From: a virus
Length of the DNA stretch: 64,000 nt
IMG/VR virus record: IMGVR_UViG_3300022939_000016
Location: 1 to 64,000 of that record
Direction: 5' to 3' (one strand)
The notes under the pieces: model-generated
Databases searched by the model: none
What the model saw: the letters and a program-made list of their open reading frames with translations, nothing else
Told to the model about the DNA's origin: nothing
Shown here: piece after piece, positions 9,765 to 53,617 of the stretch
How positions within the stretch are numbered: the stretch's first letter is position 1
Layout of the letters: the number at the start of each line of letters is the position of its first letter
Program-made: the position numbers and the translations under genes

Positions 9765-12700
9765 TTGTCTAAATTCGTACTAACAGCGCAGTTGCAGCTA
9801 CAAGCTCCAACGAACGTAAAGCAAGTTGTCAGCCAGATCCAAAAGCAATTGTCTGGCGTTTCTGTTAATCTGCAAATGACAGGAAGCCAGAAGGCACAGT
9901 CTCAGCTAAATCAGATAAAAAATTCTTTAGACGATGCTACCAAAAGCTCCTCAAAGCTCGGAAAAACTTTTGGTCAACAGGTAAGAAGATTCTCTGCTTT
10001 AGCAATTGCCACTAGGGCTGTTAGCCTGTTTACAAACACTTTAAGCTCTGCAATTCAAGAATCAATATCTTTTGAAAGAGAGCTTATTAAAATTGCTCAG
10101 GTTACGAACCAGACAATTCAACAACTGTCTTTTTTATCAAAAACAGTTTCTGATCTTTCAACTAATCTTGGAATATCTTCTAGTTCTTTACTTAGTGTTA
10201 GTAGAATTCTTTCTCAGGCTGGTCTTTCAGCTTCAGAAACAAGCATTGCTTTATCTACTCTTGCCAAGACCGAATTGGCCCCAACTTTTGATAATATTAG
10301 CCAAACCGCCGAAGGTGCAATTGCTATATTTAATCAGTTCAAGCAAGGGGCTGCCGCTCTTGAGGAGCAATTAGGTTCTATAAACGCTGTTGCTGGACAG
10401 TTTGCAGTTGAATCTGGAGATTTAATTTCAGTTGTTCGACGAACCGGTGGCGTTTTTCAAGCAGCTGGCGGTGAACTTAATGAGCTAATTGCATTATTCA
10501 CCAGTGTTAGATCCACAACGCGAGAGTCTGCCGAGAGTATTGCGACTGGCTTGCGAACTATTTTCACTAGAATTCAAAGACCAAGAACAATTGAATTCAT
10601 GAAAAAGTTTGGAGTAGAATTAACAGACTTGGAAGGCAAGTTTGTTGGCCCCTACGAGGCCGTTCGACGCTTAAGCTCTGCGCTTTCTGGCCTAGAACAA
10701 GGCGATATAACATTTGTTCAAATTGCAGAAGAGCTTGGCGGCTTTAGACAAATTGGCAAAGTTATCCCCCTCCTGCAACAGTTTAGTGTCGCTCAAGAAG
10801 CCTTAAATGTGGCCCAAAGAGGAAGTGGTTCCTTAGCAAGAGATGCTGCCACGGCGCAGCAATCTTTAGCGGTTCAAATTATTAAAGTCAAAGAACAATT
10901 CTTAGAGCTTATTAGAGGCGTTACTGAAACTCCAACGTTTCAAATTATGGCCCAAAGCGCTTTAACTTTAGCCTCTGCTTTAATTAAGGTTGCTGAATCC
11001 CTTAAGCCAATTCTTCCCATTATTAGTGCTATAGCAGCTGTTAAATTCGCCAAAGGAATGAGTGGTTTTTTGGGTGGATTAGCTGGAAGCTTGAGCGGAG
11101 CAAAGGGTTTTAATGCTGGTGGTAAAGTTCAAGCATTTGCAACTGGCGGCATGGTTCCCGGATCGGGGAATAGAGATACCGTCCCAGCAATGCTTACCCC
11201 CGGCGAGTTTGTTATGCGTAAGAGTAGCGTTCAGAAGATTGGCGCTAAGAATCTAAAGATGATGAATGAGGGTGGAAAAGCAGATCCCTTAATCCAAAAG
11301 GGAACACAGGTTGGCGGTGTTGGTATTTTTGATAGCGACATGATTGGCGCTGGAAGCAAGGGGATTCTTGGGAAACTCAAGTCTTCCGGTAAACAATACG
11401 AAGTGATTCATGGGCCAGCCGGTTCTGGTAAAACAACATTTGCGACAAAACGATTTGGCAGTAACTTTATAAAGTCCGAAGAAGATCTTGATAAATATAG
11501 TAAGTTTGTTGTACTAAGCGGCGCTGGCAAAGTAAAGGCCGGTGGCCTAAGTCCAGATGCTTCTTCTTTGTTTTCTGGTGCTACAAAAATAACAGGATTA
11601 TCACCAAGCCCAGAAACGGTTTTACAAAGAAGAGAACAAAGATTAGCCACAGGCTCCATAGACAAAAGGTCAGAAAAGGCACTTCGTGGCACTCTTAAAG
11701 CGCCAACTACATTTGATCAAGATTTATACAAAGGATTTAATAACGTTGAAATATTAGAAAAATTTGCAGATGGCGGCAAAGCAAAGGATAAGAAAAATAT
11801 TCTTGATGATGGCTTTACGATCAAGCCAAGCACACAAACTCACTTTACGCATTTGGACAGTGGCCAGACAAGCAATTTGCCAAAGGACTTCAGAAAAGTA
11901 TATACCAATATGGGTCTTGATCTTCCCGCTAATTGGAATCTTGACTGGGCTACCAACGTAACAAATCAAAAGGGCGCAATGGGTTCTGCTTTAGAGTCTT
12001 ATATTGCTGATCCTAGTCATAATATTTTTGACACGTTAACACGTCAAGGACGAGGCTCTAAAGCTTATGGCTTTAAAGGCCGATCCAAATCTCAAGCTTT
12101 TTCACTTCTGAGCGACCCTAGTAACCAATCAAAAATTAGAAGTAATTTAGTTGCTGCTATTAGTTCTAGTGAACAATTTGATACTGATCTTGATGTTAAT
12201 AAAACGTTGCCCAACGCCCTAACTACAGCTGTCGCAAAGTCTTTACCCAAAGAAGATGCCGCAGTCTTAAACAGCGGTCTAGAAGAGCAAAGCGCTTACG
12301 CAAAAGAAGGTAAATCTGGCAGAAGGAGATTGAGTAACAGAAGGCGACAGCAGCTTGCGCAAGCTCGATCTTTAGGTGGTGTGATACAAAAGTTTGCTGG
12401 TGGTGGTAAAGCTCAGGAAAAACCAGAGAAAAACTTTGGTAAGATTGGATTTAGATCTACTACTGGTGGCGAATTAACCGCGACATATCTTGGCAAGAAA
12501 GGCAGAACCGGAATGGTCTCAGCTAGATATAATAACGGTCTTTACACCGTTGCTTTATCTAAGGCTACTTCCGGCTATGGCCCCATGTTATACGATGTTG
12601 TCATGGAGCTTGCTACTGCAAATGGTAGCATGTTGACCTCAGACAGAAATCAAGTCAGCAAAGATGCTCAGGGTGTATGGGATTATTATTTTAACAAGAG

Positions 12701-15700
12701 GAATGATGTTACTAAGCATCCGCTAGATCCATCTCAGTGGACCAAGAATCAGTCACTGATTGATCCCAAGCTGTATGGCAAGAAAGAAACGTGGCCTCCT
12801 AAAACAGATCCGGCGTGGGTACTCCAGAGCGGTTACAAAAAATCTCAACGCATAACCACGGATCCAAACAGAGCTATCAATCTTAATGACCCTAAGTATG
12901 CTAATTTTATTAGACAATCTCAGATGTCTTATATGAAGCCTGCTCAGAAAAAACAGTTTGGCGGTATTATACAGAAGTTTAAAGATGGCTCAACAGGTAC
13001 TGGAGTAGCCCCTGCTAGAAACAGGATGGGAATGACTTCAGCACAAGTGGCCGCTGCTGAAGAAAGAAAGCGTTTAAGAGAGAAAGCCAAAGCCGGGGCT
13101 GGAGGAACTTTACAATTAAAGCCGGGTGTTGTCGGTGGGCTGTTTTTACAAAAAGGCTCTGGAGGTCAGAGCGGAATAGATAAGTCTCTTCAGGGCATAG
13201 AATTACCGGGATTTGCAGAAGGTTCTAACAGATTAAAAGCTAGTATATACACCGGCCAACTAAAACCAGAAGCTGGACAGGCCATAAGAAACGAATTAAA
13301 ACCAAACATCACACAAGCCGTGCAAAACGCTGCCTCTTCATCTATGGCAGCTTTGGAAATTAGCCCACTTGATATTGACGAAAAGTCGGCAGCAAAAAAG
13401 GCTGTTAATAAAATTGATTTAACTTCAATAGAAGGTTATATATTTGAGGCGTTCACCTCCGCACTAACTGGATTACAATTATCTGACGCTGGTGCTACGT
13501 TTGACTATGTTAATCCTTCTGGCAGAGCGAGAGAAAGAGTTGGACAATTATTTAGCTCTGGCTTAAGTGGCGAAAGACTTTTAGACGCGAAACGCACACT
13601 TAGTACTGAGAGTGTGCAGTCTGGTAAAAGCTCTATTGCTAACAAGATTGTAGCCGGTATTAAGGGTGGCTTGTTGGGTCCACAAGACTTTCAAAAATTT
13701 GCCACTGGCGGTATAGTTCCCGGAACTGGTAATAGTGATACTGTTCCCGCATCTCTTGGGGTTGGTGATTTTGTAATACGTAAAAGTAGTGTTAATAGCA
13801 TTGGCGCTGGAAATTTGCAAAAAATGGCTGGATATGCTACGGGTGGAAATGTCAGCGAATCTGTTCCCGCGCTTTTGACTCCGGGAGAATTTGTATTCCC
13901 CAAAAAGAAAGCCCAACAAATTGGCTACGGTAAACTTAACCGCATGAACAAGGTGGGTAAGTACGCCAAAGGTGGTGCGGTCCAAAGATTTGCCGGGGGT
14001 GGTAAATCAGGTGGGGGTGGTGGTGGATTCTTGGGGTTTGGAGGTTTGACAGAAGGATTAGTAGGAGTGCAAGTTGCGCTAAACATGTTAACCCCAACTG
14101 TCGATGAGAACAGTGGAACTTTTGAGAAAATGACGGCCAGTGTTTTAAGTTCTTTCGGCTCTTTAGTTAGCACAATAACCTTAACTCAAACGGCGCTTTC
14201 AACTTTTGGTGTCCAATTAAATTCTAAAGCTATAGGCAATTTCCTTAAATCTTTTGGTCACGCTCCTAAGACTATGGGAGAATTTTTGGGTTCTCTTAAA
14301 AAAGGCGTTGGTCGTGGTTCTGCCGGTTTAGGAGATATGATTGGTGGATTTCAAAAAGGCGGTCAGCGAACTAAAGGCGAAAGTTTTGCTGAAAATTTTG
14401 ATTTAAATAAAAGAGGTAGTAGTGTTAGAAGCGAAAGAGCTAAACAATTAGTAGAGATGAGAAAAAGAAATCCTATTGCAAAAGGGGGTTTCTCAAAACA
14501 GTCTGCATTACAAAGAAAAGCATTGCGACCCGTTGGCGGCAAAAGCATTTTAGCACAACTTGGCAAAAAGCTTGGAGCATCAAGAAGTATTGTGGGCAGA
14601 GGCGCTGGTATGGCTTTGCGAGCTGGCAGCTCGGCTGCTGGAGCATTAGGCGGTCTAGGCGGTGGTGCGGTTGGTGCGTTTGGAGCATCCTTAGCTGCTG
14701 CTGCTGGCCCTATTACCGCATTTGTTACCGCTGTAAAAATTGCTGGAGCTGCTATTTCTGGCTTTAGAGATTTAGAAAACAGATTAAAAGACGCAATTAA
14801 AGCCGAAGATACAGCCACTGCACAAAAACTTGCTACAGCCTCTTTAGTTGAACAAAATTGGGGCGGCGCTATCGGCGGTATCGCCTCTGTTCTTGACAAC
14901 TTATCATCTTCAGGATCTCTCGCTACAGATACGCTAGCAGCCATAGGCACTGCTTTTGGCGGTACTTCCTCTGCCGCGATCAAGGCAGACGTTGCGGCTA
15001 GAATATCTAGCGCAAAAACCGCCAAAGCCCTGACAGAGGCTCAGAAAGCTTCAGCTGAAGCAATGAAAGATCTAGAGAACGGTACTATTTCTGCAAGTCA
15101 AGCTCTGGCAAAAGTTCGATCATTTACTCAGCAAGCTGAACAAAATTCTAAGGCGCAAAGAGCTGCTATATCAACCGCCGCCGAAGGCAAGTCTACTGGA
15201 GCTTTGAGCTATGGTCGAGAAGCTATGGCTTATCTTAGCTTTGGTTATGTTGATTCTGCTAGACAAAGAAATGAAAAAATTGATGCTGAAAACGAAAAAA
15301 GAAGTCAAGACAGCATTAACCAAAGAAGGCAAGCAATAGGTATTCAAAGTCAAGCAAGTATGGCTACTGCTAGAAGCATACTTTCTACTGGTGGAAATAT
15401 AGATGAGGTTAAACAAAGACTTGGAGATGCTGGCCCTCAAAAACTTAGAGATGAAGCTATAGAGGTTAGACAAAAGGCAATCAAGGCAACCAAGGAAGGC
15501 GACACAGAAACAGCAAAGCTGCTTGAAGAAGAAGCGAAAATGCTTTCTGATGAAGCTAGAGCTTTAGAAAAATCTCTCATCAATCTAGCCAAAGAGGTCG
15601 AAAAGCAACAAAAATATTTTGCAGCTATGAACCTTGGGCTAAATTCTGCAACTGGCGCTGCTGGAGCTTTTAGTAACGCTATGTCTAATTACGCTGCCGC

Positions 15701-18053
15701 TCAAGAGGCTGGCAATGTTTCTGTCATGAGAAGCTTTGCTACTCTTCAAGCCGGTGTGACATCAGCTGCTGCCGGTATGGACCCAGCGGTTTTTCAAAAG
15801 GCAGCCTCAGAAGGCGCGAAAGCGTTACGAGAATTTGGAGCAACGAAAGAGGCTGATAAATTTGAAGCCAACTTAAATGCAATAAATAAAGCGCAAGCAA
15901 ATGCAGAAGCTGGTTTAAATTCCTTTAGGAATCAACTAAAAGACAGATCTGATAGCGGCCTTGGTTTAAAAAATGATGAACAAAAATTTGAAGGTTTATT
16001 TGATACAATAGTCAAGGGTTCTGGGATTGGCAAAGAGATGGAAGATCAACTCCGAGACATGCTTGGAGGAATGGACATTGATTATAGCAAGATTGCAAAG
16101 GGTGATTTTAGTCAAATCGAAGAAGTATTCAAACAGCTTGGAGATGAAACGTTACAGCAAGCTAAAGCTGTCATGGAAGCAGAGCAACTGTACCAAGAAA
16201 CTATTCGCGATGCAGCGCAAAAAAGAGCAGCCGCTGAAAACGATTTCATTTCAGCTTCAAGACAGAGACAAGATTACCAAAAAGAATCTAGAGAAATTAT
16301 AGCTTCAGCTGGGGGTCCAGCTTTTACTGCGCAGCAACAAAGGGAGATGGTTGTTGACCGTTATAATACTGGTAATAAATTTTCTAATCGTGACAATCTT
16401 GGTGGTGCTACCGCTAAAGACATTGTTGCCCAACAAAACGCCCTTAAGCAGCGTCAGGCTGAAATACAAAATGTTAGACTTCAAGCAGCACAAGGCGATG
16501 CCAACGCTGAAGCAAAACTTTCTGGAGAAAGAGGTGTTTCATTATCCAATGAAGAATCTCAAATCAATCAACAAAATCAAGAGCTATATAACTCAACCAA
16601 GCAGCTTATTGACATAAAAAGACAAGAAGTTAAAATTATTCAAGAAAAAAATAGACTTGAAAAACAATCAATGGAGTCTTTGCTTGCTGGTGATATAGAT
16701 AGCTTTTTTGATGCCCAAGCGTCCCAAGGAGCCATTGACGCTCTCGCTGGCGGTGGCAACGTCGCTGACTTTGATGCAGACACTTTATATAGTGCGTTTG
16801 AGGAGTTAAAAAGACAAGCAGCTGCTGGAGTTACGGAAGTTAATGGTCAGCAACTGCAAGGGCCGGGAGGTTTACTTGAACGAGCAGCTGCCGCAACCGC
16901 CGAAGCTCGCGGTCTTGATCCAGCACAAGCGGCTCTCGTTGCTCAAAAAGCAGCTGGACAAACACCCGCAGAGCAAGCGGCAAATAATGAAATACAACAA
17001 TTAGCTGCAACTTTGCCTGCGTTTGGCGATATGGCTATGAATTCTTCTCGGGTGCAAATGGCCGCAGCCGAAGCTCAAAGACAAGCGGCTGAGATTCAAA
17101 AAGAAGCCGCTGTTAAAAGATCTCAAGAAAACGCAGAAAGAACATTGCCAAAGCCAGACCAGCAACAGCCTCCACAGCAACAGCCCCCAGCAAGACCTTC
17201 TACGCCTCCACCGGGAGCTTCACCTCCCCCCGCCCCCATTCCTCCCTCTGCGTCTGTTTCTGCGCCGCCGCCACCTTCTGGTTCTAGCTCTTCTGTGGGT
17301 TCTACTCCTCCTGCACCCCCGTCTTCTACTGCTGACATCGCCGCAGCCGCCGCAGCTGCCGCTAGTCAGATACCTTCTTCAGTTAATGCAAATCAAACGC
17401 CACCAACTCAAGACCCGCAAACTATTGGTCAAGCCATCGCGCAAGCTTTTAGTAACAATGCTCGTGATTTTGCTTCATTTGCAACTGCCGGATATGTTAG
17501 ACCTAGCCAAGAAAATGAATCGCAGGGCGTGGGCATTCGCCAACTTGCCAACCTTAATCCAGCTATGGCTCTTGGTAATATGGCGGCTTCTAATCTTGGT
17601 TTAGACACTCAAGCCTTAACTTCGTTTACTAGCAATCAATTAGAATCTGTCTCTAATTTTGGCGCAGCCGTTAAGCAGTTTGAGTATATTGTTAAAGCTA
17701 TAAATACAACAAACGGCTCAAATAATACTTCTGTTAACAATGGCTCCACTCAAGCTCCAGCTAGCAACAATAATTCTGCTATTGGGTTCGATACTTCTTC
17801 TATGAATCAGTTTACTTCAGCCTTAAGTAAGTTTAACGACACAATACTACAAAGTATAAGCACTCTACAACAAACTAAATTTACTGTTAAGCTAGAACCA
17901 ACTAATATTAACATTAATTTAACTGGAACTTCATTCCTGCAAGCTCTTACTGGCGACCTAAAGTCTAGCTTGTTAAAGATAGTTAGTGAAAAAATAAGAA
18001 ACCTCAAGGTAGACAGCGCCGGAAGAGTAATAGAAAGTAATAGTAATTTGTAA
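9765..18053 (+). CDS. Tail tape measure protein with embedded enzyme-like modules
   Basis: A 2,762-residue protein starting at a TTG preceded by GGAG with 7-base spacing. Residues about 85-345 match the TP901-type tape-measure core. Three tape-measure motifs of the form GGMVPGSGNRDTVPA with TPGEFVMRKSS lie near residues 461, 1315 and 1360. Hydrophobic Ala/Gly-rich segments lie at about 1615-1665, long coiled coils follow, and a Pro-rich linker spans about 2465-2510. Between residues 540 and 1300 are modules unlike a coiled-coil ruler: a P-loop (GPAGSGKTT from 550), a GNAT-like stretch (GYGPMLYDVV at 937) and a PD-(D/E)XK-like pattern (E1228, D1247, D1274-A-K1276). They are separated by a recurring KFAxGGK spacer. 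At about 0.15 nm per helical residue the upper limit for tail length is near 0.4 micrometres, less if the modules are globular. Confidence 0.92.
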   Translation: MSKFVLTAQLQLQAPTNVKQVVSQIQKQLSGVSVNLQMTGSQKAQSQLNQIKNSLDDATKSSSKLGKTFGQQVRRFSALAIATRAVSLFTNTLSSAIQESISFERELIKIAQVTNQTIQQLSFLSKTVSDLSTNLGISSSSLLSVSRILSQAGLSASETSIALSTLAKTELAPTFDNISQTAEGAIAIFNQFKQGAAALEEQLGSINAVAGQFAVESGDLISVVRRTGGVFQAAGGELNELIALFTSVRSTTRESAESIATGLRTIFTRIQRPRTIEFMKKFGVELTDLEGKFVGPYEAVRRLSSALSGLEQGDITFVQIAEELGGFRQIGKVIPLLQQFSVAQEALNVAQRGSGSLARDAATAQQSLAVQIIKVKEQFLELIRGVTETPTFQIMAQSALTLASALIKVAESLKPILPIISAIAAVKFAKGMSGFLGGLAGSLSGAKGFNAGGKVQAFATGGMVPGSGNRDTVPAMLTPGEFVMRKSSVQKIGAKNLKMMNEGGKADPLIQKGTQVGGVGIFDSDMIGAGSKGILGKLKSSGKQYEVIHGPAGSGKTTFATKRFGSNFIKSEEDLDKYSKFVVLSGAGKVKAGGLSPDASSLFSGATKITGLSPSPETVLQRREQRLATGSIDKRSEKALRGTLKAPTTFDQDLYKGFNNVEILEKFADGGKAKDKKNILDDGFTIKPSTQTHFTHLDSGQTSNLPKDFRKVYTNMGLDLPANWNLDWATNVTNQKGAMGSALESYIADPSHNIFDTLTRQGRGSKAYGFKGRSKSQAFSLLSDPSNQSKIRSNLVAAISSSEQFDTDLDVNKTLPNALTTAVAKSLPKEDAAVLNSGLEEQSAYAKEGKSGRRRLSNRRRQQLAQARSLGGVIQKFAGGGKAQEKPEKNFGKIGFRSTTGGELTATYLGKKGRTGMVSARYNNGLYTVALSKATSGYGPMLYDVVMELATANGSMLTSDRNQVSKDAQGVWDYYFNKRNDVTKHPLDPSQWTKNQSLIDPKLYGKKETWPPKTDPAWVLQSGYKKSQRITTDPNRAINLNDPKYANFIRQSQMSYMKPAQKKQFGGIIQKFKDGSTGTGVAPARNRMGMTSAQVAAAEERKRLREKAKAGAGGTLQLKPGVVGGLFLQKGSGGQSGIDKSLQGIELPGFAEGSNRLKASIYTGQLKPEAGQAIRNELKPNITQAVQNAASSSMAALEISPLDIDEKSAAKKAVNKIDLTSIEGYIFEAFTSALTGLQLSDAGATFDYVNPSGRARERVGQLFSSGLSGERLLDAKRTLSTESVQSGKSSIANKIVAGIKGGLLGPQDFQKFATGGIVPGTGNSDTVPASLGVGDFVIRKSSVNSIGAGNLQKMAGYATGGNVSESVPALLTPGEFVFPKKKAQQIGYGKLNRMNKVGKYAKGGAVQRFAGGGKSGGGGGGFLGFGGLTEGLVGVQVALNMLTPTVDENSGTFEKMTASVLSSFGSLVSTITLTQTALSTFGVQLNSKAIGNFLKSFGHAPKTMGEFLGSLKKGVGRGSAGLGDMIGGFQKGGQRTKGESFAENFDLNKRGSSVRSERAKQLVEMRKRNPIAKGGFSKQSALQRKALRPVGGKSILAQLGKKLGASRSIVGRGAGMALRAGSSAAGALGGLGGGAVGAFGASLAAAAGPITAFVTAVKIAGAAISGFRDLENRLKDAIKAEDTATAQKLATASLVEQNWGGAIGGIASVLDNLSSSGSLATDTLAAIGTAFGGTSSAAIKADVAARISSAKTAKALTEAQKASAEAMKDLENGTISASQALAKVRSFTQQAEQNSKAQRAAISTAAEGKSTGALSYGREAMAYLSFGYVDSARQRNEKIDAENEKRSQDSINQRRQAIGIQSQASMATARSILSTGGNIDEVKQRLGDAGPQKLRDEAIEVRQKAIKATKEGDTETAKLLEEEAKMLSDEARALEKSLINLAKEVEKQQKYFAAMNLGLNSATGAAGAFSNAMSNYAAAQEAGNVSVMRSFATLQAGVTSAAAGMDPAVFQKAASEGAKALREFGATKEADKFEANLNAINKAQANAEAGLNSFRNQLKDRSDSGLGLKNDEQKFEGLFDTIVKGSGIGKEMEDQLRDMLGGMDIDYSKIAKGDFSQIEEVFKQLGDETLQQAKAVMEAEQLYQETIRDAAQKRAAAENDFISASRQRQDYQKESREIIASAGGPAFTAQQQREMVVDRYNTGNKFSNRDNLGGATAKDIVAQQNALKQRQAEIQNVRLQAAQGDANAEAKLSGERGVSLSNEESQINQQNQELYNSTKQLIDIKRQEVKIIQEKNRLEKQSMESLLAGDIDSFFDAQASQGAIDALAGGGNVADFDADTLYSAFEELKRQAAAGVTEVNGQQLQGPGGLLERAAAATAEARGLDPAQAALVAQKAAGQTPAEQAANNEIQQLAATLPAFGDMAMNSSRVQMAAAEAQRQAAEIQKEAAVKRSQENAERTLPKPDQQQPPQQQPPARPSTPPPGASPPPAPIPPSASVSAPPPPSGSSSSVGSTPPAPPSSTADIAAAAAAAASQIPSSVNANQTPPTQDPQTIGQAIAQAFSNNARDFASFATAGYVRPSQENESQGVGIRQLANLNPAMALGNMAASNLGLDTQALTSFTSNQLESVSNFGAAVKQFEYIVKAINTTNGSNNTSVNNGSTQAPASNNNSAIGFDTSSMNQFTSALSKFNDTILQSISTLQQTKFTVKLEPTNININLTGTSFLQALTGDLKSSLLKIVSEKIRNLKVDSAGRVIESNSNL

Positions 18054-44566: not shown

Positions 44567-45553
44567 TTATAAACTCCGTGTTGCCTCAAAGGTTTGGTTC
44601 CAATGTTCTAAAAAGACATCTTCTCTAAAATCAGCTAATATTTTTTTTCTGGCGTTGTCGCCCATTTTTCTCGCCAGTTCTGGATCGTCTAAAAGTTGCT
44701 GAGTATATTTTTTTAACTCTTTTTCATCATTTGATATAAAACCCTCTACCCCATGAGTAATAACTTCCGGTATCATACATGTTGCTTTTGACACAACGGC
44801 GCACCCACAAGACATTGCTTCTAACACTGATTTTGGTATGGGACTAAACGTTGATGAGTTTAAAAATACGGAATGAGAATTATAAATATCAACTAGCTTC
44901 TCGACAGATTCAGTTGGCTCTGACAGACCGGGATTATCTCCAACCAAGGTAAAATCTAAGCCTTCTACTATATCCTTCCACCCCGTAAAATTCAAGCAAT
45001 AGTCTCTATTGATAAAATCGTTAGCGACCGTTAATACTTTATTTTCTCTACTTTGTTTTTGATTGTGAAAAACTTTGGTATCGATAGAATGTTTAATTAC
45101 TGTTGAGTTATATACAATTCCCCATTCAGATCTGGAATATTCGGAAATAAAAACATTAACATCCCCAACCATTTCTCTCATGGCGTTTATTTGTCCACTT
45201 GCCACAAGGTTGGGTGTTGGCGTTGTATGTTCTAGGGAAATAAGGGGTATTTTTAAAATATTTCTTAGCCTATGAGCAATATTAAATTGATCAAATCTAC
45301 TTTGGGCCAATATTAAATCAAAGCTCAAGTACGATAACAGCTTGTCCTCTGGCATTATTAGGTAGTTTTCTGGTATGCTTGCATATTCTTTTTTCCACTT
45401 CTTTCCCCCTCTTGCGTTTACTGCATAAAAATTATGTCCCGTTTTGCAAAGTTGGGTTTCATACCTTTCGTGCGTGGGGAAGGTGAGTATATTTAGCTTT
45501 CTACTTTTATTTTTATTGTTGGCTTTTTCTATGATTTCCTTGACTTTATTCAT
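44567..45553 (-). CDS. GT4-family glycosyltransferase
   Basis: A 328-residue GT-B protein. Near residue 234 the sequence PIPKSVLEAMSCGCAVV, followed by PEVITHGVEGFI, is the GT4 donor-binding pattern with its E-x7-E-like helix. The C-terminus has the usual DDPELARKMGDNAR helix. It is soluble and cytoplasmic by prediction. It overlaps the next upstream gene by 8 bp. Substrate unknown; it probably transfers a sugar from a nucleotide donor together with its neighbours. Confidence 0.8.
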   Translation of the reverse strand: MNKVKEIIEKANNKNKSRKLNILTFPTHERYETQLCKTGHNFYAVNARGGKKWKKEYASIPENYLIMPEDKLLSYLSFDLILAQSRFDQFNIAHRLRNILKIPLISLEHTTPTPNLVASGQINAMREMVGDVNVFISEYSRSEWGIVYNSTVIKHSIDTKVFHNQKQSRENKVLTVANDFINRDYCLNFTGWKDIVEGLDFTLVGDNPGLSEPTESVEKLVDIYNSHSVFLNSSTFSPIPKSVLEAMSCGCAVVSKATCMIPEVITHGVEGFISNDEKELKKYTQQLLDDPELARKMGDNARKKILADFREDVFLEHWNQTFEATRSL

Positions 45554-46664
45554 TAATAATTTCCTTTATCTTTTCGCCAACCGTTTGTAAATTAAAATTT
45601 AAAGCCTGCTTATATCCCTCTTCGTTTTTCGGTTTATTTTGTTCAAAGTAAAATCGCATAGCTTCTACTGCCATTCTTTCGTCTGGTCTCGCCCAATATT
45701 CGTTTCCTGTGAATATGTGTTCAAAGGCAGCGCCTTCGTTAGAGCAAATCTCTTGGGATCTTTCTATTAAGTATCCCGTATCTCGATTGTCTTCTAAAAT
45801 ATAATCACATGGCCCTCCCCATCTCGTGCATATGGGGTGGTTTCCATGACTCATTGCGTCGAATGATGGTATCGACCAAGCCTCTCCGTGAGAAAGATTT
45901 ACAAAACAATCGCAAAGTTGATGTAAATTTTTTATCTCATTCTCAGAAAACCTTTCCGCAATAATAATTATATCTCCATAACTATCGTGATCTTTATATA
46001 TAGCTAAATCTGTTCTTATTTTCTTGCACATTTCTTCCATGTGCATAAAAATTTGTCTTGGGTTGACTCCGAATTTTCCCACCTTTAAAATTAAACTTAC
46101 ATTTTCTTCTGGGCTAAATGCGCTATAATAACATTTGATTATGGATTCTATATTTTTTCTTTTAGTTAAATCTGATATCGCATAAAACTTGTACGAAGAC
46201 GTTGCGTTATATCTTTCAAAATTTACTTCCATTTTGTTTTCTTGTTTTATGATTTCCGTGTCGCAAGGTATTGGTACAACTTTAACATTTTTAATTCCGG
46301 CTTTTACTAAATCTGTTTTGTTTTCATTGCACGGAACCCAAACCTCATCCATTATTTCAAGATAATTAACCCAAATATTATGCTGTATATTATTAGATTC
46401 AAACATTGCATAAGCTATGTTTTTCTTAAATTTGTTAGTTCCAACAAGCATGTGTGGCAAAACGTGCTGAATGCAAATATCGATGTCTTTTTCTTCTTTT
46501 TGTTCTAGTTCTGACAGCCAATCTGGAATAGCACTATCTTTTGTGAGCGTAATATTTCTGCAAACAACTTCTATGCCAGCCTTAGTCATTGAAAGAATGA
46601 TTCTTTCTGCCGACTTGGCCCAGCCGGTTCCTTCTTTGTAATGACCTATGTATAGTACTTTCAT
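45546..46664 (-). CDS. GT4-family glycosyltransferase
   Basis: A 372-residue GT-B protein. The N-terminus MKVLYIGHYKEGTGWAKSAE has the Gly-rich loop of this family. The donor site HGEAWSIPSFDAMSHGNHPI lies near residue 258, followed by WGGPCDYI. It starts in an ATGA overlap with the 552-residue transferase gene. Acceptor and donor are unknown. Confidence 0.8.
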   Translation of the reverse strand: MKVLYIGHYKEGTGWAKSAERIILSMTKAGIEVVCRNITLTKDSAIPDWLSELEQKEEKDIDICIQHVLPHMLVGTNKFKKNIAYAMFESNNIQHNIWVNYLEIMDEVWVPCNENKTDLVKAGIKNVKVVPIPCDTEIIKQENKMEVNFERYNATSSYKFYAISDLTKRKNIESIIKCYYSAFSPEENVSLILKVGKFGVNPRQIFMHMEEMCKKIRTDLAIYKDHDSYGDIIIIAERFSENEIKNLHQLCDCFVNLSHGEAWSIPSFDAMSHGNHPICTRWGGPCDYILEDNRDTGYLIERSQEICSNEGAAFEHIFTGNEYWARPDERMAVEAMRFYFEQNKPKNEEGYKQALNFNLQTVGEKIKEIINE

Positions 46665-48319
46665 AAATTAAAAACCTCTGCTCTTTTTGTTTCCCATAGA
46701 TTTATGTTGTTTCTTTTGTTCACTAGTTGTTCGTGTGCGTATTTGATTGTAAATGGTTGATTTTCAATTTTTTTAGAGAGAGATACCACTGAATCATCTT
46801 CATTAAAAAATGAACCTATAATTGGAGATGTACTAAATCCATATATCAAATTATTCAAGATGTTGTCATATTCATAATTGTATTTGTCTTGTGGTTTGCA
46901 TAAAGCTTTATCAAACAGCCAATTTACCACATCTGGGTATGGGACATTGTTAAGTTCTTCTGGTATGTTACGTTCTGGTTTTTGTATATCTACTGGAGAT
47001 TTCCAAGATTTTTCCAAACTTAAAGTTTCAACTGAGTCAAAATATGATTCCCAAACCTTTCCGCTAATTTCCCACTGGAATTTTTTCAAAAAGTTTTGCC
47101 GCATTTCAAATCCTTCTTTTTTTCTCATAGCTAATGGTTTTGAGAAAAATTCAGAAAACATTTGTGCGGCAGCGTCATTGTCTGGTACTGCTCTTTCGCA
47201 TCCGGTTTCCATTTCTTTATAAAGAGACTTATAAGGTATAGCGTACCCATTTAGCTTTTTAATAACGCTAGACATGGCAGAGTAGTCAATGCTCATAACG
47301 GGAATTCCGCACGAAGCCGCCTCTACTTGTGGTAGCCCAAAGCCTTCCGAGTTTGCGTATTGAACGTATAAATCAAAACAATTCATAATTTTCGCCAAAT
47401 CTGGATAAGATAGTCCGTTCTTAACATTAGCCAGTTTAGCGGAAAATTTACCAGTAAAGGGAGATCTTGTTACCGCCCCGTGAAAATGTGAGGCAAAAAA
47501 TCTACCAGTTTCTAGGCATACATATGTAAATAAAACATATGAGTGCAGAGAATGCTCTGATAATATCTCTGGCAAATCCCATCCAGCATCTGGATAGCTT
47601 GTGTGGCAATATAGCTTATACTCATTGGGATTATTTGATGAGGATAAAAATTTTCTAAAAGCACTGAAGAGATCTGGGTAAAGCTTTCTTCTTTGATTTC
47701 TCATTACAGTCCCAATAATTTTTGTATTAGGATCAATTCCTAAACTTTCTCTTAAAGATTCTTTGTTTTCTATTGGTTTATATGAAAGGTCTGCCGAAGG
47801 AGACGCAGTTCCTATATAATTAATTTTATTTCTGGATTGCTTTTTAAGCACTTCTCCAGACCAGTCTGAATAACTGAGGCAGGCATCTGCCGCGCTGTAC
47901 ATGTTAATCCACTCTTTTGCTTGTGGGTATGCATCTACCGTTGGCATCAAAGCCCACTTAAAGAATTTCCTAAAGGGGGAATTGTGAACAAAGTCTGTCA
48001 TCCAGAAATCTCTAATATCACAAACAATGTCTGGTAAAAATTCTAGGCACACCCTTTCAAAAGCAAAGCCTCCAAACTGACTTTTTGGATTACTTTTATA
48101 TAGATTGGTTAATTCTTGGTTCGAAGGATCTGGCATGACACCAAAAAATTTCCAAGGGGCTTTTGATCTGGGGTCTTTGTCCATACCATAAGCAGCTAAT
48201 TCTGCTATTTCATATTTACCAGTACTATACAAATATTTAAGTATTTCCCTTGTGTAAGTAGCGTACCCAGTATTAAGAAAGGTAGCTTCAGAACAGAACA
48301 GTATCCTAGTTTTTCTCAT
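46661..48319 (-). CDS. GT4-family glycosyltransferase, long
   Basis: A 552-residue GT-B protein, longer than usual. N-terminal RILFCSEATFLNTGYATY, then near residue 324 the donor motif NSEGFGLPQVEAASCGIPVM. About 120 extra residues follow the usual end of the family and have no recognised domain. It starts in an ATGA overlap with the GT32-like gene. Substrate unknown. Confidence 0.8.
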   Translation of the reverse strand: MRKTRILFCSEATFLNTGYATYTREILKYLYSTGKYEIAELAAYGMDKDPRSKAPWKFFGVMPDPSNQELTNLYKSNPKSQFGGFAFERVCLEFLPDIVCDIRDFWMTDFVHNSPFRKFFKWALMPTVDAYPQAKEWINMYSAADACLSYSDWSGEVLKKQSRNKINYIGTASPSADLSYKPIENKESLRESLGIDPNTKIIGTVMRNQRRKLYPDLFSAFRKFLSSSNNPNEYKLYCHTSYPDAGWDLPEILSEHSLHSYVLFTYVCLETGRFFASHFHGAVTRSPFTGKFSAKLANVKNGLSYPDLAKIMNCFDLYVQYANSEGFGLPQVEAASCGIPVMSIDYSAMSSVIKKLNGYAIPYKSLYKEMETGCERAVPDNDAAAQMFSEFFSKPLAMRKKEGFEMRQNFLKKFQWEISGKVWESYFDSVETLSLEKSWKSPVDIQKPERNIPEELNNVPYPDVVNWLFDKALCKPQDKYNYEYDNILNNLIYGFSTSPIIGSFFNEDDSVVSLSKKIENQPFTIKYAHEQLVNKRNNINLWETKRAEVFNL

Positions 48320-49321: not shown

Positions 49322-50887
49322 CTAAACTTCGTGAATTTTCTCAATAATAAAAGACGAGTCGTTTTTAGCAACAGACCCGCATAGAATTAAATTATTACCT
49401 TCGTATAAAATGTATTTATATTTTTGCTTTGTTTTCGGAAAAGCTATAACGCTGTCTAGTACGCAGGTGTCGTCTTCTATGGTTAAAAACGACATTATTT
49501 GCCCCTTTGAGTCTCCCTTGCTTATTTTATAATCTGACACTCGCTGTATATTAGCTACCACGCATAAGTTCTGCCCATGTTTGCCATTAATTATTTCCTT
49601 GCAAGTTGTGTTGGCGGCAGATGTATCTGAAACGTCTATTTTTGATAATGTTATTGGGCAGCCCAAAAACTTTACTTCTTGGTCAATTATCCAAGTTGGT
49701 TCATCTTCCAAGCTGTATGGTGGATTTTCTAATAAATTTACTTCATTGTTGATGATCTGTTTCCTTTCTTGTTTGCTAGTTCCTCCCCCCTCTTTCTTTG
49801 TTGGAGCTAAATCTATAAGTGCAGATGTAAAATCTTTCCACTTTTTACTTTCATAGTTGTTAGCAAGCCATTTCTTTTCTGCTTGAGTCAAAACCCTGTA
49901 TATTTCGTAATCGTATAGAGCCTTATTCCTCGTGACCTTGCCGTTAAAGTCTCTAAAGAAACCTATAGATGCCAGAGCCTTAAAGGCAGTAGAATTAATA
50001 CGAGGAGAGAAAAACAATAGCAATTCCACCCATGAAAACTTTGTTATTTTTTTATCCAATTCTAATTCTGATTCTAATATTGACCTTAGTACAGAATCTC
50101 CAGTTTTTCCTGTTAGAGATTTGATATCCTTAATACCAAAATATATTTTATGTTTTTTTGCATTAAACTTTTCTTGATAATTAGCAATGCTAGGCGTTTT
50201 GGTATGAATTTCAAAAAGCTTTGCTTCTGAAACTAATTCATATATCTCCTGATGCGGATCTTGCTTCTCGTTAGCGTAATATAAGTAAGATAGAAAGAAT
50301 TCTTCTGGATTGTGGGCCTTTTGATACGCACTCCAATATGAACATACGGCGTATGATATACTGTGAGACTTGTTAAAGGCGTAACGTGACGATGCCTGAA
50401 TCCATCCAAAGATTTGTTCTGCCTCTTCCTTAGTTACAATCTTGGCCTTCTTAGCTCCAGCTATGAACTTTTTCTTAACCTTAGCCATTAGGTCAGCCTT
50501 TTTCTTTCCGATGGCTTTACGAAGCTCGTCAGCTTCTTGTAGATCGAATCCAGCGATCTTTTGGGCGATACGCATGGACTGCTCCTGATAAACCAGAACG
50601 CCATATGTTGGTGCTAGGATTTCCTCTAACGCTTCATGCAAGTATGTTACTTCTTCACGGCCATGCTTACGGTCAATGAAGTGCTGTGTCATAGACTTAC
50701 CATCAACATAAGCCTTGAGGCATCCCGGCCTAATAATTGCAATAAGTGCGGACAGTTCTTCGATATTACTTGGAGCAAGTTTCTTTGACCACGATTTACC
50801 AAGGTTGCTTTCTAGCTGAAAGACACCTTTAGTTTTACCGTCTGCAAATAGTTGCCAAGTTTTCTTGTCATTATATTCCATTGTCAT
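49322..50887 (-). CDS. dnaE: DNA polymerase III alpha, C-terminal half (split DnaE)
   Basis: A 521-residue protein that begins where the other half ends. It carries the finger and later parts of DnaE: VFQLES at residues 22-27, FIDRKHGREEV, APTYGVLVYQEQSM, LRKAIGKKK and FNKSHSISYAV. A C-terminal OB-like segment starts near NLCVVANIQRV. The catalytic Asp residues are on the other half (52,058-53,617). No intein sequence is present at its N-terminus. It starts at an ATG overlapping the preceding gene by 17 bp. The two halves presumably assemble into one polymerase. Confidence 0.88.
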   Translation of the reverse strand: MTMEYNDKKTWQLFADGKTKGVFQLESNLGKSWSKKLAPSNIEELSALIAIIRPGCLKAYVDGKSMTQHFIDRKHGREEVTYLHEALEEILAPTYGVLVYQEQSMRIAQKIAGFDLQEADELRKAIGKKKADLMAKVKKKFIAGAKKAKIVTKEEAEQIFGWIQASSRYAFNKSHSISYAVCSYWSAYQKAHNPEEFFLSYLYYANEKQDPHQEIYELVSEAKLFEIHTKTPSIANYQEKFNAKKHKIYFGIKDIKSLTGKTGDSVLRSILESELELDKKITKFSWVELLLFFSPRINSTAFKALASIGFFRDFNGKVTRNKALYDYEIYRVLTQAEKKWLANNYESKKWKDFTSALIDLAPTKKEGGGTSKQERKQIINNEVNLLENPPYSLEDEPTWIIDQEVKFLGCPITLSKIDVSDTSAANTTCKEIINGKHGQNLCVVANIQRVSDYKISKGDSKGQIMSFLTIEDDTCVLDSVIAFPKTKQKYKYILYEGNNLILCGSVAKNDSSFIIEKIHEV

Positions 50888-51407: not shown

Positions 51408-52065
51408 CTGCAAACGCCCTTTCAAATTCGATGTTTTGGTAAACTGCTCTATGTGTTTTCAGCAGCTTTATGAATATGTTAGCGGTGTCTTTAACGTCCT
51501 GTAAGGCATCGTGAGCATTTTCCGAAGATAAGCCCATGCGCTCACGTAAAGAATCCATACTAATTGATTTAACGCTAGGATCACTCTCAGTCCACAAGAA
51601 AACATTATCCATAAGATCCACTTTATATACTTTGCTAAACAGTTTTTGCTGCAATCTTCCATCGTCCCAAGGTCCATATTGCCTGCATAATCGATTGATA
51701 ATTACCATATCAAAACCAATGATATTATAGCCCACGGGAATTGGGGCGAAGAAAGGTTCACCCTTCCAGTTGTATTGATCAACAAATTTTGTAAACTTAT
51801 TCCAAACAGACTTTAAAGCAGGTGCTTTAGATAACCCCTCTCTGGTTTTACCAGTGACCTTTAAGGCTCCTTCTTCAATTGGATCTATTCCGGCAGCAAT
51901 TGCTTCGTCATCATCAAGAATTGGTTTAATTTCACTATTAAAAGTTCCCTTAAGCGTTAGGCTTCTTCCATCAAGAGCCACTGCGGCTATCTGTGTAGGC
52001 TGTGTTTTGTTAGGATTGCGAGATCCTGTTTCAAAGTCAAATACAATATAATCCCTATTAGCCAT
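51385..52065 (-). CDS. DEDDh 3'-5' exonuclease (proofreading, DnaQ-like)
   Basis: A 226-residue protein with all five DEDDh residues: D10-F-E12, D119 (NIIGFD), H185 (AHDALQD) and D190. This is the DnaQ/epsilon type that removes misinserted bases for DnaE polymerases. GGAG precedes the ATG, which overlaps the N-half stop by 8 bp. Placement between the two polymerase halves, together with a PHP domain that lacks its metal ligands in the N-half, suggests it supplies proofreading. Confidence 0.85.
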   Translation of the reverse strand: MANRDYIVFDFETGSRNPNKTQPTQIAAVALDGRSLTLKGTFNSEIKPILDDDEAIAAGIDPIEEGALKVTGKTREGLSKAPALKSVWNKFTKFVDQYNWKGEPFFAPIPVGYNIIGFDMVIINRLCRQYGPWDDGRLQQKLFSKVYKVDLMDNVFLWTESDPSVKSISMDSLRERMGLSSENAHDALQDVKDTANIFIKLLKTHRAVYQNIEFERAFADGNLYIK

Positions 52066-53617
52066 TTTTTATCTCCTGTATTTTCATTAGTTTATCTAGG
52101 AGATTAATTCCTAGAACATCAAACTTTACATGACCTAGAGCTTCTAAGTCAGACATTTCCAATCCTGCGATCTTTTCTGACGATCCTTTCTGTTTAACCA
52201 TTGGACACACTTGGTGTAGAGGATCTTTTGATATGACAACGCCAGCGGCATGTTTGCCTTGAGTCTTAAAAGTCCCCTCAATGTCTATGGCCTGCTGGAA
52301 ATATTGGGCATAATCACCTTCTAGTTTTCCATTTTCCAGAATGTGACAAAAATCCCTCAACTCATCAGCACGATTCAATAATGACCAACGAATAATAGAT
52401 CTATCTTCATCATCCATATCTGCAAGTTGGTCAGAAATATCTGCTTCGTTTGGTATACTCTTTGTTATAGCGTTCATCTCGCCAAAAGAACAAGCGTCAT
52501 TTATGCGCAGCACTTCTTTTATTGCGCTTCGCCCTTGCAGTCTACCAAACGTAATCATTTGACTTACATGATCCTTGCCGTATTTACCCTTGAGATAATC
52601 TATAACATCATCACGCCTCTTTCCCGGAACGTCCATGTCAATATCTGGTAGAGATACGTGACCATCAGTGTTTCGTCCAGCATTGTAAAATCTTTCAAAC
52701 AGTAAGTCGTATTCCACTGGGTCAATTTTTGTAATTCCAATTAAATATGATATCAAGCATCCAGCTGCCGATCCTCGTCCCGGACCAGCCAAGCATCCCA
52801 TATCATGCTCTACGTGCCTGATAATATCCTGCACGATGAGGAAGTAGCCAAATAGATTTGCATCTTTAATGACTTGTAGTTCTGAATTAAATCTATCTAG
52901 ATATTTCTGCTTATCTTCTGGCTTCTTTACTTTACCAGTGTCAATAAGATGACGTTTCCAGCCTTCTCTGGCAAGCACCTTGAGGTAATCTTCTTCAGAT
53001 AATCCTTCTGGACAATCGAACTTGGGAAGCATGGGAGGACTGAGAATATCATAGTCTTCACATACTTCATAGATATGCTGCAACTCCTTTGTTACTGCAA
53101 CGGGTTGTATACACTTGTCATCGTGCGTAAAGTATTGCGATACCGCTTTGTCCAGTTCGTTCTTGCGAAGCTGTTTTTGTATTTTAGGCAACGTGGTCTT
53201 TAGTGCTGAACATAATAATACTCTATGTAAACCAGCCTGTTTAGAATCAACATAATAGCTTGGTTGAATATTTTTACTTATAGATATGAGATTGTCCCTT
53301 GACATAATCTCTTGACAGAATTTTATATTAACATTTCCATCTTCGTCTAAAGATGATACCATTTCTATTAAGTCAAACCATCCATCTTTATTTCTCGCAA
53401 AGACTGCATTATTGTCAAAGGAGCAGCCAAGGATTGGCTTAACACCAACCTTCTTGCAAGCCTGAAAAAACGAAACACAACCAGAAATAGATTTGTAATC
53501 TGCAATACCACATGCTGGATAATCATTATCAGCACAAATCTTGGCAAGTTCAGTTGGTTTTGAGAATCCTTTTAGCAAACTGTAATGTGTAAAATTACGC
53601 AATGGAAACCAATTCAT
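52058..53617 (-). CDS. dnaE: DNA polymerase III alpha, N-terminal half (split DnaE, catalytic)
   Basis: A 519-residue protein with the PHP and palm parts of DnaE. The catalytic residues are all here: D325 and D327 in LPDIDMD and D500 in VKFDVLG, with AGPGRGSAAG near 278 as the nucleotide-binding loop. The protein stops soon after D500, where full-length DnaE continues into the fingers, and the missing part is encoded separately at 49,322-50,887. In the PHP domain the usual H-x-H near the start is replaced (NFTHYS), and the region before the palm is about 75 residues shorter than in E. coli. A sigma70-like promoter lies just upstream. No intein. Confidence 0.9.
   Translation of the reverse strand: MNWFPLRNFTHYSLLKGFSKPTELAKICADNDYPACGIADYKSISGCVSFFQACKKVGVKPILGCSFDNNAVFARNKDGWFDLIEMVSSLDEDGNVNIKFCQEIMSRDNLISISKNIQPSYYVDSKQAGLHRVLLCSALKTTLPKIQKQLRKNELDKAVSQYFTHDDKCIQPVAVTKELQHIYEVCEDYDILSPPMLPKFDCPEGLSEEDYLKVLAREGWKRHLIDTGKVKKPEDKQKYLDRFNSELQVIKDANLFGYFLIVQDIIRHVEHDMGCLAGPGRGSAAGCLISYLIGITKIDPVEYDLLFERFYNAGRNTDGHVSLPDIDMDVPGKRRDDVIDYLKGKYGKDHVSQMITFGRLQGRSAIKEVLRINDACSFGEMNAITKSIPNEADISDQLADMDDEDRSIIRWSLLNRADELRDFCHILENGKLEGDYAQYFQQAIDIEGTFKTQGKHAAGVVISKDPLHQVCPMVKQKGSSEKIAGLEMSDLEALGHVKFDVLGINLLDKLMKIQEIKNG

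Follow-up and report, generated by a model that had tools for sequence, protein, structure and literature searches.

The stretch of DNA analysed here, hereafter the window, is 64,000 nucleotides long and comes from a virus record of 78,729 bases (IMG/VR record IMGVR_UViG_3300022939_000016). It encodes a large tape measure protein (TMP), the features of which are collected in Table 1. Residues 126-312 of this protein match PhageMin_Tail in Pfam (PF10145, E 4.6e-22), and PHROG TMP families match it too, the best being phrog_4211 (E 5e-22). An upstream gene at positions 6766-7611 matches a major tail protein profile; thus, both the profile match and the position after tail genes identify the protein as a TMP. 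The reading frame and the tape measure identity given in the original prediction were both correct. Elsewhere in the window, on the minus strand, two ORFs (49322-50887 and 52058-53617) match positions 627-1070 and 244-612, respectively, of the single DNA polymerase family phrog_405 and are parted by two small ORFs, constituting a split DNA polymerase gene. Also on the minus strand is an adjoining pair of glycosyltransferase-like genes (45546-46664 and 46661-48319; phrog_2170).

Table 1. Features of the tape measure gene in the window (residues refer to the TMP).
Feature	Coordinates	Strand	Basis
TMP gene, 2762 aa, TTG start	9765..18053	+	ORF; PhageMin_Tail; PHROG TMP families
PhageMin_Tail domain, residues 126-312, inside the conserved N-terminal TMP region (1-450)	10140..10700	+	Pfam
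Bay-bounding unit A, residues 458-505, FATGGMVPGSGNRDTVPAMLTPGEFVMRKSSVQKIGAKNLKMMNEGGK	11136..11279	+	Sequence comparison with relatives
Putative P-loop (kinase-like) module, residues 525-668	11337..11768	+	hhalign to TMP P-loop modules; Walker A
Walker A motif GPAGSGKT, residues 550-557	11412-11435	+	Motif
Helical module, residues 681-865	11805..12359	+	AF2 mostly helical, moderate confidence
Predicted GNAT acetyltransferase module, residues 888-1034	12426..12866	+	AF2, Foldseek, VIA; 18-19 homologues
PD-(D/E)XK-like module, residues 1105-1310; E1228, D1247, D1274-A-K1276	13077..13694	+	20 homologues
Degenerate extra bounding unit, residues 1312-1352, FATGGIVPGTGNSDTVPASLGVGDFVIRKSSVNSIG...	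13698..13820	+	Sequence
Bay-bounding unit B, residues 1357-1404, YATGGNVSESVPALLTPGEFVFPKKKAQQIGYGKLNRMNKVGKYAKGG	13833..13976	+	Sequence comparison with relatives

A search of IMG/VR gave 172 candidate stretches with relatives of the N-terminal domain (N-domain). The best 80 of these 172 loci were taken, and in them the N-terminal TMP region retains 46-80% identity. The NCBI phage collection gave distant N-domain matches only (22-33% identity) together with matches to one short repeated unit, and our searches of phage isolates found none carrying a system of the window type. Bacterial MAG contigs with TMP relatives span SAR202, Verrucomicrobia, Alpha- and Gammaproteobacteria and other phyla; these are probably mis-binned viral contigs. 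The TMP of the closest full relative (L002, 10001-16610) is read as two ORFs of 1508 and 628 aa, a split that is due to a frameshift or an assembly error. An assembly chimera as the source of the module arrangement described below was ruled out, since that arrangement recurs across many independent contigs.

The variable part of these TMPs is the stretch between two conserved DTVPAxLTPGEFV units, which in the window TMP bound what we term the bay. Unit A directly follows the N-domain and reads FATGGxVPGSGNxDTVPAMLTPGEFVxRKSSV..GA.NL..MN, while the consensus of unit B is GTDTVPALLTPGEFVVNKxSAQxIGYxNLNRMNK. Units of the A type also occur in Gordonia phage TMPs and in proteins of T4-like cyanophages. 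In two of the latter (H104, OR473000.1 155641-155877; H142, MK867354.2 164238-164393) the LTPGEFV unit adjoins endolysin annotations, and therefore the unit is used outside TMPs too. We compared 69 distinct TMPs that have two or more units. Their first and second units lie 203 to 2280 residues apart, and the stretch in between contains one or more recognised modules in 60 of the 69 and two or more in 23. Because the module seeds came from the bay region, the concentration of modules there is partly a matter of ascertainment, although the profile searches covered whole TMPs. Extra units with modules on both sides are present in L026, L101 and L102, and a zincin-like module is located outside the bay in L009, L022, L046, L050 and L085. 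This HExxH module, seen in the TMPs of L009, L022, L046, L085 and L058, mostly after unit B, matches Peptidase_M90 weakly and is possibly a protease for TMP processing. A transmembrane scan found no above-threshold segment in the window TMP and hydrophobic stretches after the bay in several relatives. FAxGG linkers recur between modules and may be hinges or cleavage sites.

The best-defined cargo of the window TMP is a GNAT module. Its AlphaFold2 model has a pLDDT of mostly about 90 and the strand and helix order beta-beta-beta-beta-alpha-beta-alpha-beta. The top Foldseek matches are all GNAT enzymes, the best being human GCN5 and PCAF (probability 1.00, E 2e-3), with other GNATs and the anti-CRISPR acetyltransferase AcrVA5 among the further matches; VIA-align superposes the model on human GCN5 (5trm) with a Z of 8.1 and an rmsd of 3.5 A over 116 residues. 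The acyl-CoA motif G-x-G-P is present as GYGP (G937-P940) at the start of helix alpha3, and its two glycines are invariant or nearly so among about 18-19 homologues. The modelled structure confirms a GNAT fold, and a GNAT-like segment first placed at residues 900-1010 is thereby extended at both ends; the module is a predicted acetyltransferase. Pfam searches with every sequence aligned for the GNAT and for the PD-(D/E)XK-like module returned no named enzyme family, and PDB sequence searches with the two profiles no convincing relatives. Structure predictions from alignments were run with one module family at a time because MAFFT had placed PD-(D/E)XK-like fragments on the GNAT and misplaced P-loop fragments.

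The PD-(D/E)XK-like module displays the E..D..(D/E)xK pattern of this nuclease group. In 20 homologues, most of them 17-30% identical to the window module, G1224, E1228, D1247, K1276 and K1294 are strictly invariant and position 1274 is D or E. Its AF2 model, with a mean pLDDT of 62, is weak; Foldseek gave no PDB match for it and VIA nothing usable, and for that reason we assign the segment as PD-(D/E)XK-like at the level of motifs. Of what had been proposed for residues 1150-1300, the catalytic pattern is therefore supported, and no fold match was obtained. A second PD-(D/E)XK-like family, found in 44 TMPs, is related to that of the window (profile probability 99.2%). PD-(D/E)XK-like modules are the commonest cargo of the bay. 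Some copies of the second family (for example those of L002, L040, L086 and L091) have DAT, DVT or DTT in place of DxK and have thus lost the catalytic lysine, so some of the cargo may lack activity. L035, L053, L056 and L089 carry a third type, with RxDA..EIKS, for which profile comparison detected no relationship.

A Walker A motif alone is weak evidence for a P-loop domain in a protein this long. However, residues 526-668 align with a P-loop module shared by the TMPs of L004, L101 and L102 at a probability of 90% (hhalign, E 1.8e-6), where unrelated module pairs score about 0-1%, and the P-loop is invariant across these three homologues. The isolated segment has a weak Pfam match to AAA_33 (0.002), its AF2 model is of low pLDDT and its profile match is limited to other TMP modules. 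The P-loop originally predicted at residues 540-680 is thus borne out by motif and profile and not by fold. Between it and the GNAT, residues 685-890 are mostly helix in a single-sequence AF2 prediction (pLDDT ~50-80), and no homologue of residues 681-865 was found among the fetched loci. Searched in isolation against Pfam and PHROGs, the window modules gave sub-threshold matches only.

The related TMPs carry other enzyme-like modules. ADP-ribosyltransferase (ART) modules with R..STS..ExE motifs are found in L041, L044 and L088; that of L041 matches PF03496 above the cut-off (E 4.7e-6), and that of L088 is of a different type with a match to PF18760, ART-PolyVal, below it (E 1.2e-4). The ART profile found no convincing relatives among PDB sequences. 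HAD-type modules carry the motifs DFDxTL (DxDxT), TARP and DD; another family, with DxDRT, is related to them (probability 83%). In L004, L101 and L102 a HIGH nucleotidyltransferase adjoins the P-loop, with a PF16581 match below the cut-off. The L004 TMP is a single polypeptide of 5102 aa that unites P-loop, nucleotidyltransferase, HAD and GNAT modules. In the smallest bay (203 aa), residues 492-665 of the L017 TMP contain, by eye, a staphylococcal-nuclease-like motif (DGDT..GYDAYE); this segment has no match in Pfam.

Cargo changes rapidly relative to the protein that carries it. In pairs of TMPs with N-domains 70-95% identical, the recognised cargo differs in 131 and agrees in 23. For example, L028 and L044 have N-domains about 90-92% identical, and L028 carries a PD-(D/E)XK-like module with X28, a bay module without an assigned identity, where L044 carries a PD-(D/E)XK-like module with an ART. 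The ARTs of L041 and L088 share 83% identity, against 51% for their N-domains, whereas for L041 and L044 the values are 57% and 81%; similarly, the window GNAT is 57% identical to that of L004 (N-domains 52%) and 35% identical to that of L026 (N-domains 69%). Because the module phylogeny disagrees with the TMP backbone, we conclude that the modules are exchanged. The dN/dS of cargo modules is 0.06-0.25, compared with 0.09-0.12 in the N-domain (Nei-Gojobori, pairs not saturated at synonymous sites), although several dS values exceed 1 and the ratios from these are rough. Catalytic residues are mostly intact across the relatives. These sequence comparisons indicate that the cargo modules are under purifying selection.

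The view that the TMP contains enzyme modules is thus upheld: the fold supports the GNAT, and profile matches or catalytic motifs support the others. The modules are recurrent, exchanged and conserved. They also lie, as had been claimed, within normal tape-measure sequence, since relatives whose N-domains are 68-80% identical share the same flanks and differ in their inserts. A comparison of module content across related TMPs showed that the bay recurs with other module mixtures in about 70 of them, and it is more general than the original prediction recognised.

Homologues of the window GNAT also exist as standalone proteins of other uncultivated phages (profile probability 99.7%, E 4e-26). 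In most of these, M.LLREYIRELLTEA or a comparable helix opens the protein and AKGPxDLP comes next. The tag, MNLLREYIRELLTEA, is found on 1-9 ORFs in 10 of the 11 records with a standalone GNAT and is therefore common to unrelated proteins in many records. In T4, likewise, diverse internal proteins have only the capsid targeting sequence in common (PMC3012670), and the standalone GNATs appear to use a T4-like tag. A T4-type prohead protease (S77) is present in three of these 11 records, most of which are fragments. The protease was absent from all five TMP-GNAT records searched and no tag was detected across 14 TMP-type records, absences that carry little weight since most records are fragments. 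The simplest reading of these sequences would be that the window-type GNAT is a virion-delivered enzyme, carried by the head in some phages and by the tape measure in others. L011 (9776-11181) has a standalone GNAT and, after it, a P-loop kinase-like (zeta-like) ORF; each bears an N-terminal tag of the LLREYIRELLTEA type, and a tRNA nucleotidyltransferase-like ORF lies upstream. In L106 (3216-6008), a 931-aa frame fuses a nucleotidyltransferase-like segment, an internal tag copy, the GNAT and a PAP2-like segment.

A fixed, bounded slot in which enzyme domains differ between close relatives suggests that the ruler is also a protein-delivery vehicle at infection. We believe, with a probability of roughly 0.7, that the window TMP also serves to carry effector enzymes in the virion, held in the bounded bay, a reading drawn from sequence and predicted structure. 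It is also probable, in our judgement, that in widespread uncultivated tailed phages the TMP serves as a modular effector chassis, its bay filled with host-modifying enzymes (acetyltransferase, ADP-ribosyltransferase, nuclease-like, kinase-like and phosphatase) that are swapped in by recombination and delivered to the cytoplasm before the genome. In our model, recombination would place foreign enzyme domains into the bay between LTPGEFV units, while the TMP domain at the N-terminus, together with the lengthy C-terminal part, would set tail length and help with DNA ejection. The modules would travel in the tail lumen partly unfolded, exit with the TMP before the DNA and refold in or at the cytoplasm. 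In the first minutes they would alter host proteins or nucleic acids for take-over or counter-defence, an early role proposed for polyvalent proteins after injection and known for T4 Alt.

The proposed delivery is supported by published work on TMP ejection, by the polyvalent-like domain repertoire and by the tagged standalone GNATs. TMPs are described as phage cargo that leaves the tail lumen on ejection and inserts into the cell membrane (PMC13277306), the lambda TMP is located at the inner membrane while DNA enters (PMC13190303) and cargo proteins pass the narrow tail partly unfolded (PMC10172136). By analogy with this TMP biology we infer that the modules may enter the host cytoplasm; we likewise infer how they would be packaged, that they would be enzymatically active, what they would target and whether they would be released by proteolysis. 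Counting against a carrier role are the copies of the second PD-(D/E)XK-like family that lack the catalytic lysine, the weak structural models of the P-loop and PD-(D/E)XK-like modules, the ascertainment in module clustering and the absence of the system from the isolates searched. A folded domain of 15-20 kDa would also be tight in the tail lumen. To our knowledge, moreover, other TMPs are known to reach only as far as the periplasm and inner membrane.

The modules might instead be structural filler or degenerate remnants, captured by recombination, that add length or bulk or stabilise one tail end without catalysis. The range of bay lengths, from 203 to 2280 aa, fits such a role in that exact length seems unimportant there, as do the low-confidence models for the P-loop and helical regions and the loss of the catalytic lysine from some second-family PD-(D/E)XK-like copies. 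However, these very divergent modules have few positions that are invariant or nearly so, and the catalytic residues belong to that small set; dN/dS is 0.06-0.25 and standalone homologues of the GNAT exist, and we consider filler unlikely. The PD-(D/E)XK-like module could also be a selfish or recombination-promoting (homing-like) nuclease that maintains the bay and drives its reshuffling, with the remaining modules as passengers. That it is the commonest cargo and has exchanged neighbours would agree with this, but it is fused in-frame rather than being free-standing or part of a splicing element, no empty target site was identified and copies without the catalytic lysine persist, so that we regard a selfish nuclease as very improbable.

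It is quite unlikely, in our estimation, that the modules work inside the producing cell or while the virion assembles, in DNA end processing or in late modification of tail or host proteins, or that they are cut out and released there. The TMP gene does lie among structural genes, a class normally expressed late, the recurrent FAxGG linkers could be cleavage sites, and many DNA-processing enzymes have PD-(D/E)XK folds. Nevertheless, a repertoire of ART, GNAT, nuclease-like, HAD and nucleotidyltransferase domains with fast exchange fits host conflict better, whereas an assembly role should be conserved, and the standalone GNATs bear a tag typical of packaged proteins.

If the TMP is indeed a carrier, its nearest counterparts are the polyvalent proteins of phages and conjugative elements, which combine several unrelated enzymatic domains in one polypeptide, including ART and GNAT, and for which injection with the DNA has been proposed (PMC5512222). 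The window TMP has the same multi-enzyme build, with the at least two disparate catalytic domains that define this group (GNAT, PD-(D/E)XK-like and P-loop, by predicted domains); its relatives show polyvalent-type combinations of ART, HAD, NTase and GNAT, and the sub-threshold match of the L088 module is to ART-PolyVal itself. However, the carriers of polyvalent proteins include MuF, portal and conjugative-transfer proteins, whereas here the carrier is a TMP with its cargo in a bounded internal bay. A text search of PMC5512222 for 'tape measure' found no mention. Sle1 and Tme, effectors of contractile injection systems (PMC13277306), are TMP-like proteins that are themselves the delivered effector, and their functional domains vary among relatives; they belong to bacterial contractile systems and their functional domain is C-terminal, in contrast to the internal multi-enzyme bay of a phage TMP. 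Enzymatic domains are likewise embedded in the TMP of mycobacteriophage TM4, for which a peptidoglycan hydrolase motif is cited in PMC13277306, and in SPbeta YomI, which has a lytic transglycosylase domain. These act on the cell wall for entry, whereas the window modules are of an intracellular type.

The T4 internal proteins and Alt, an ADP-ribosyltransferase, are also virion-borne, delivered with the DNA, diverse and exchanged (PMC3012670; PMC5512222). The internal proteins are packaged in the head via the capsid targeting sequence, whereas the window modules are fused into the tail ruler. PhiCrAss001 stores cargo in its tail, and extrusion of that cargo into the cell in a partly unfolded state has been proposed (PMC10172136); there the cargo consists of separate proteins in the tail barrel, whereas in the window it consists of domains of the tape measure. 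Multi-enzyme injected proteins, TMP-like effectors of contractile systems and wall hydrolases inside TMPs are already known, and the bounded, exchangeable bay would be the new element. We found no description of a TMP with such a multi-enzyme bay in the literature searched, which lay mostly outside subscription journals.

Injected phage effectors are known to be head-packaged or fused to portal and MuF proteins. If our reading is true, an exchangeable enzyme bay in the tape measure would add a tail-based delivery route, and it would explain the great length of some TMPs, which reach 5102 aa here. The paired LTPGEFV units would offer a bioinformatic handle for finding early take-over and counter-defence enzymes that are as yet unknown. 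Furthermore, the bay bears on the question of how much of the TMP crosses the inner membrane.
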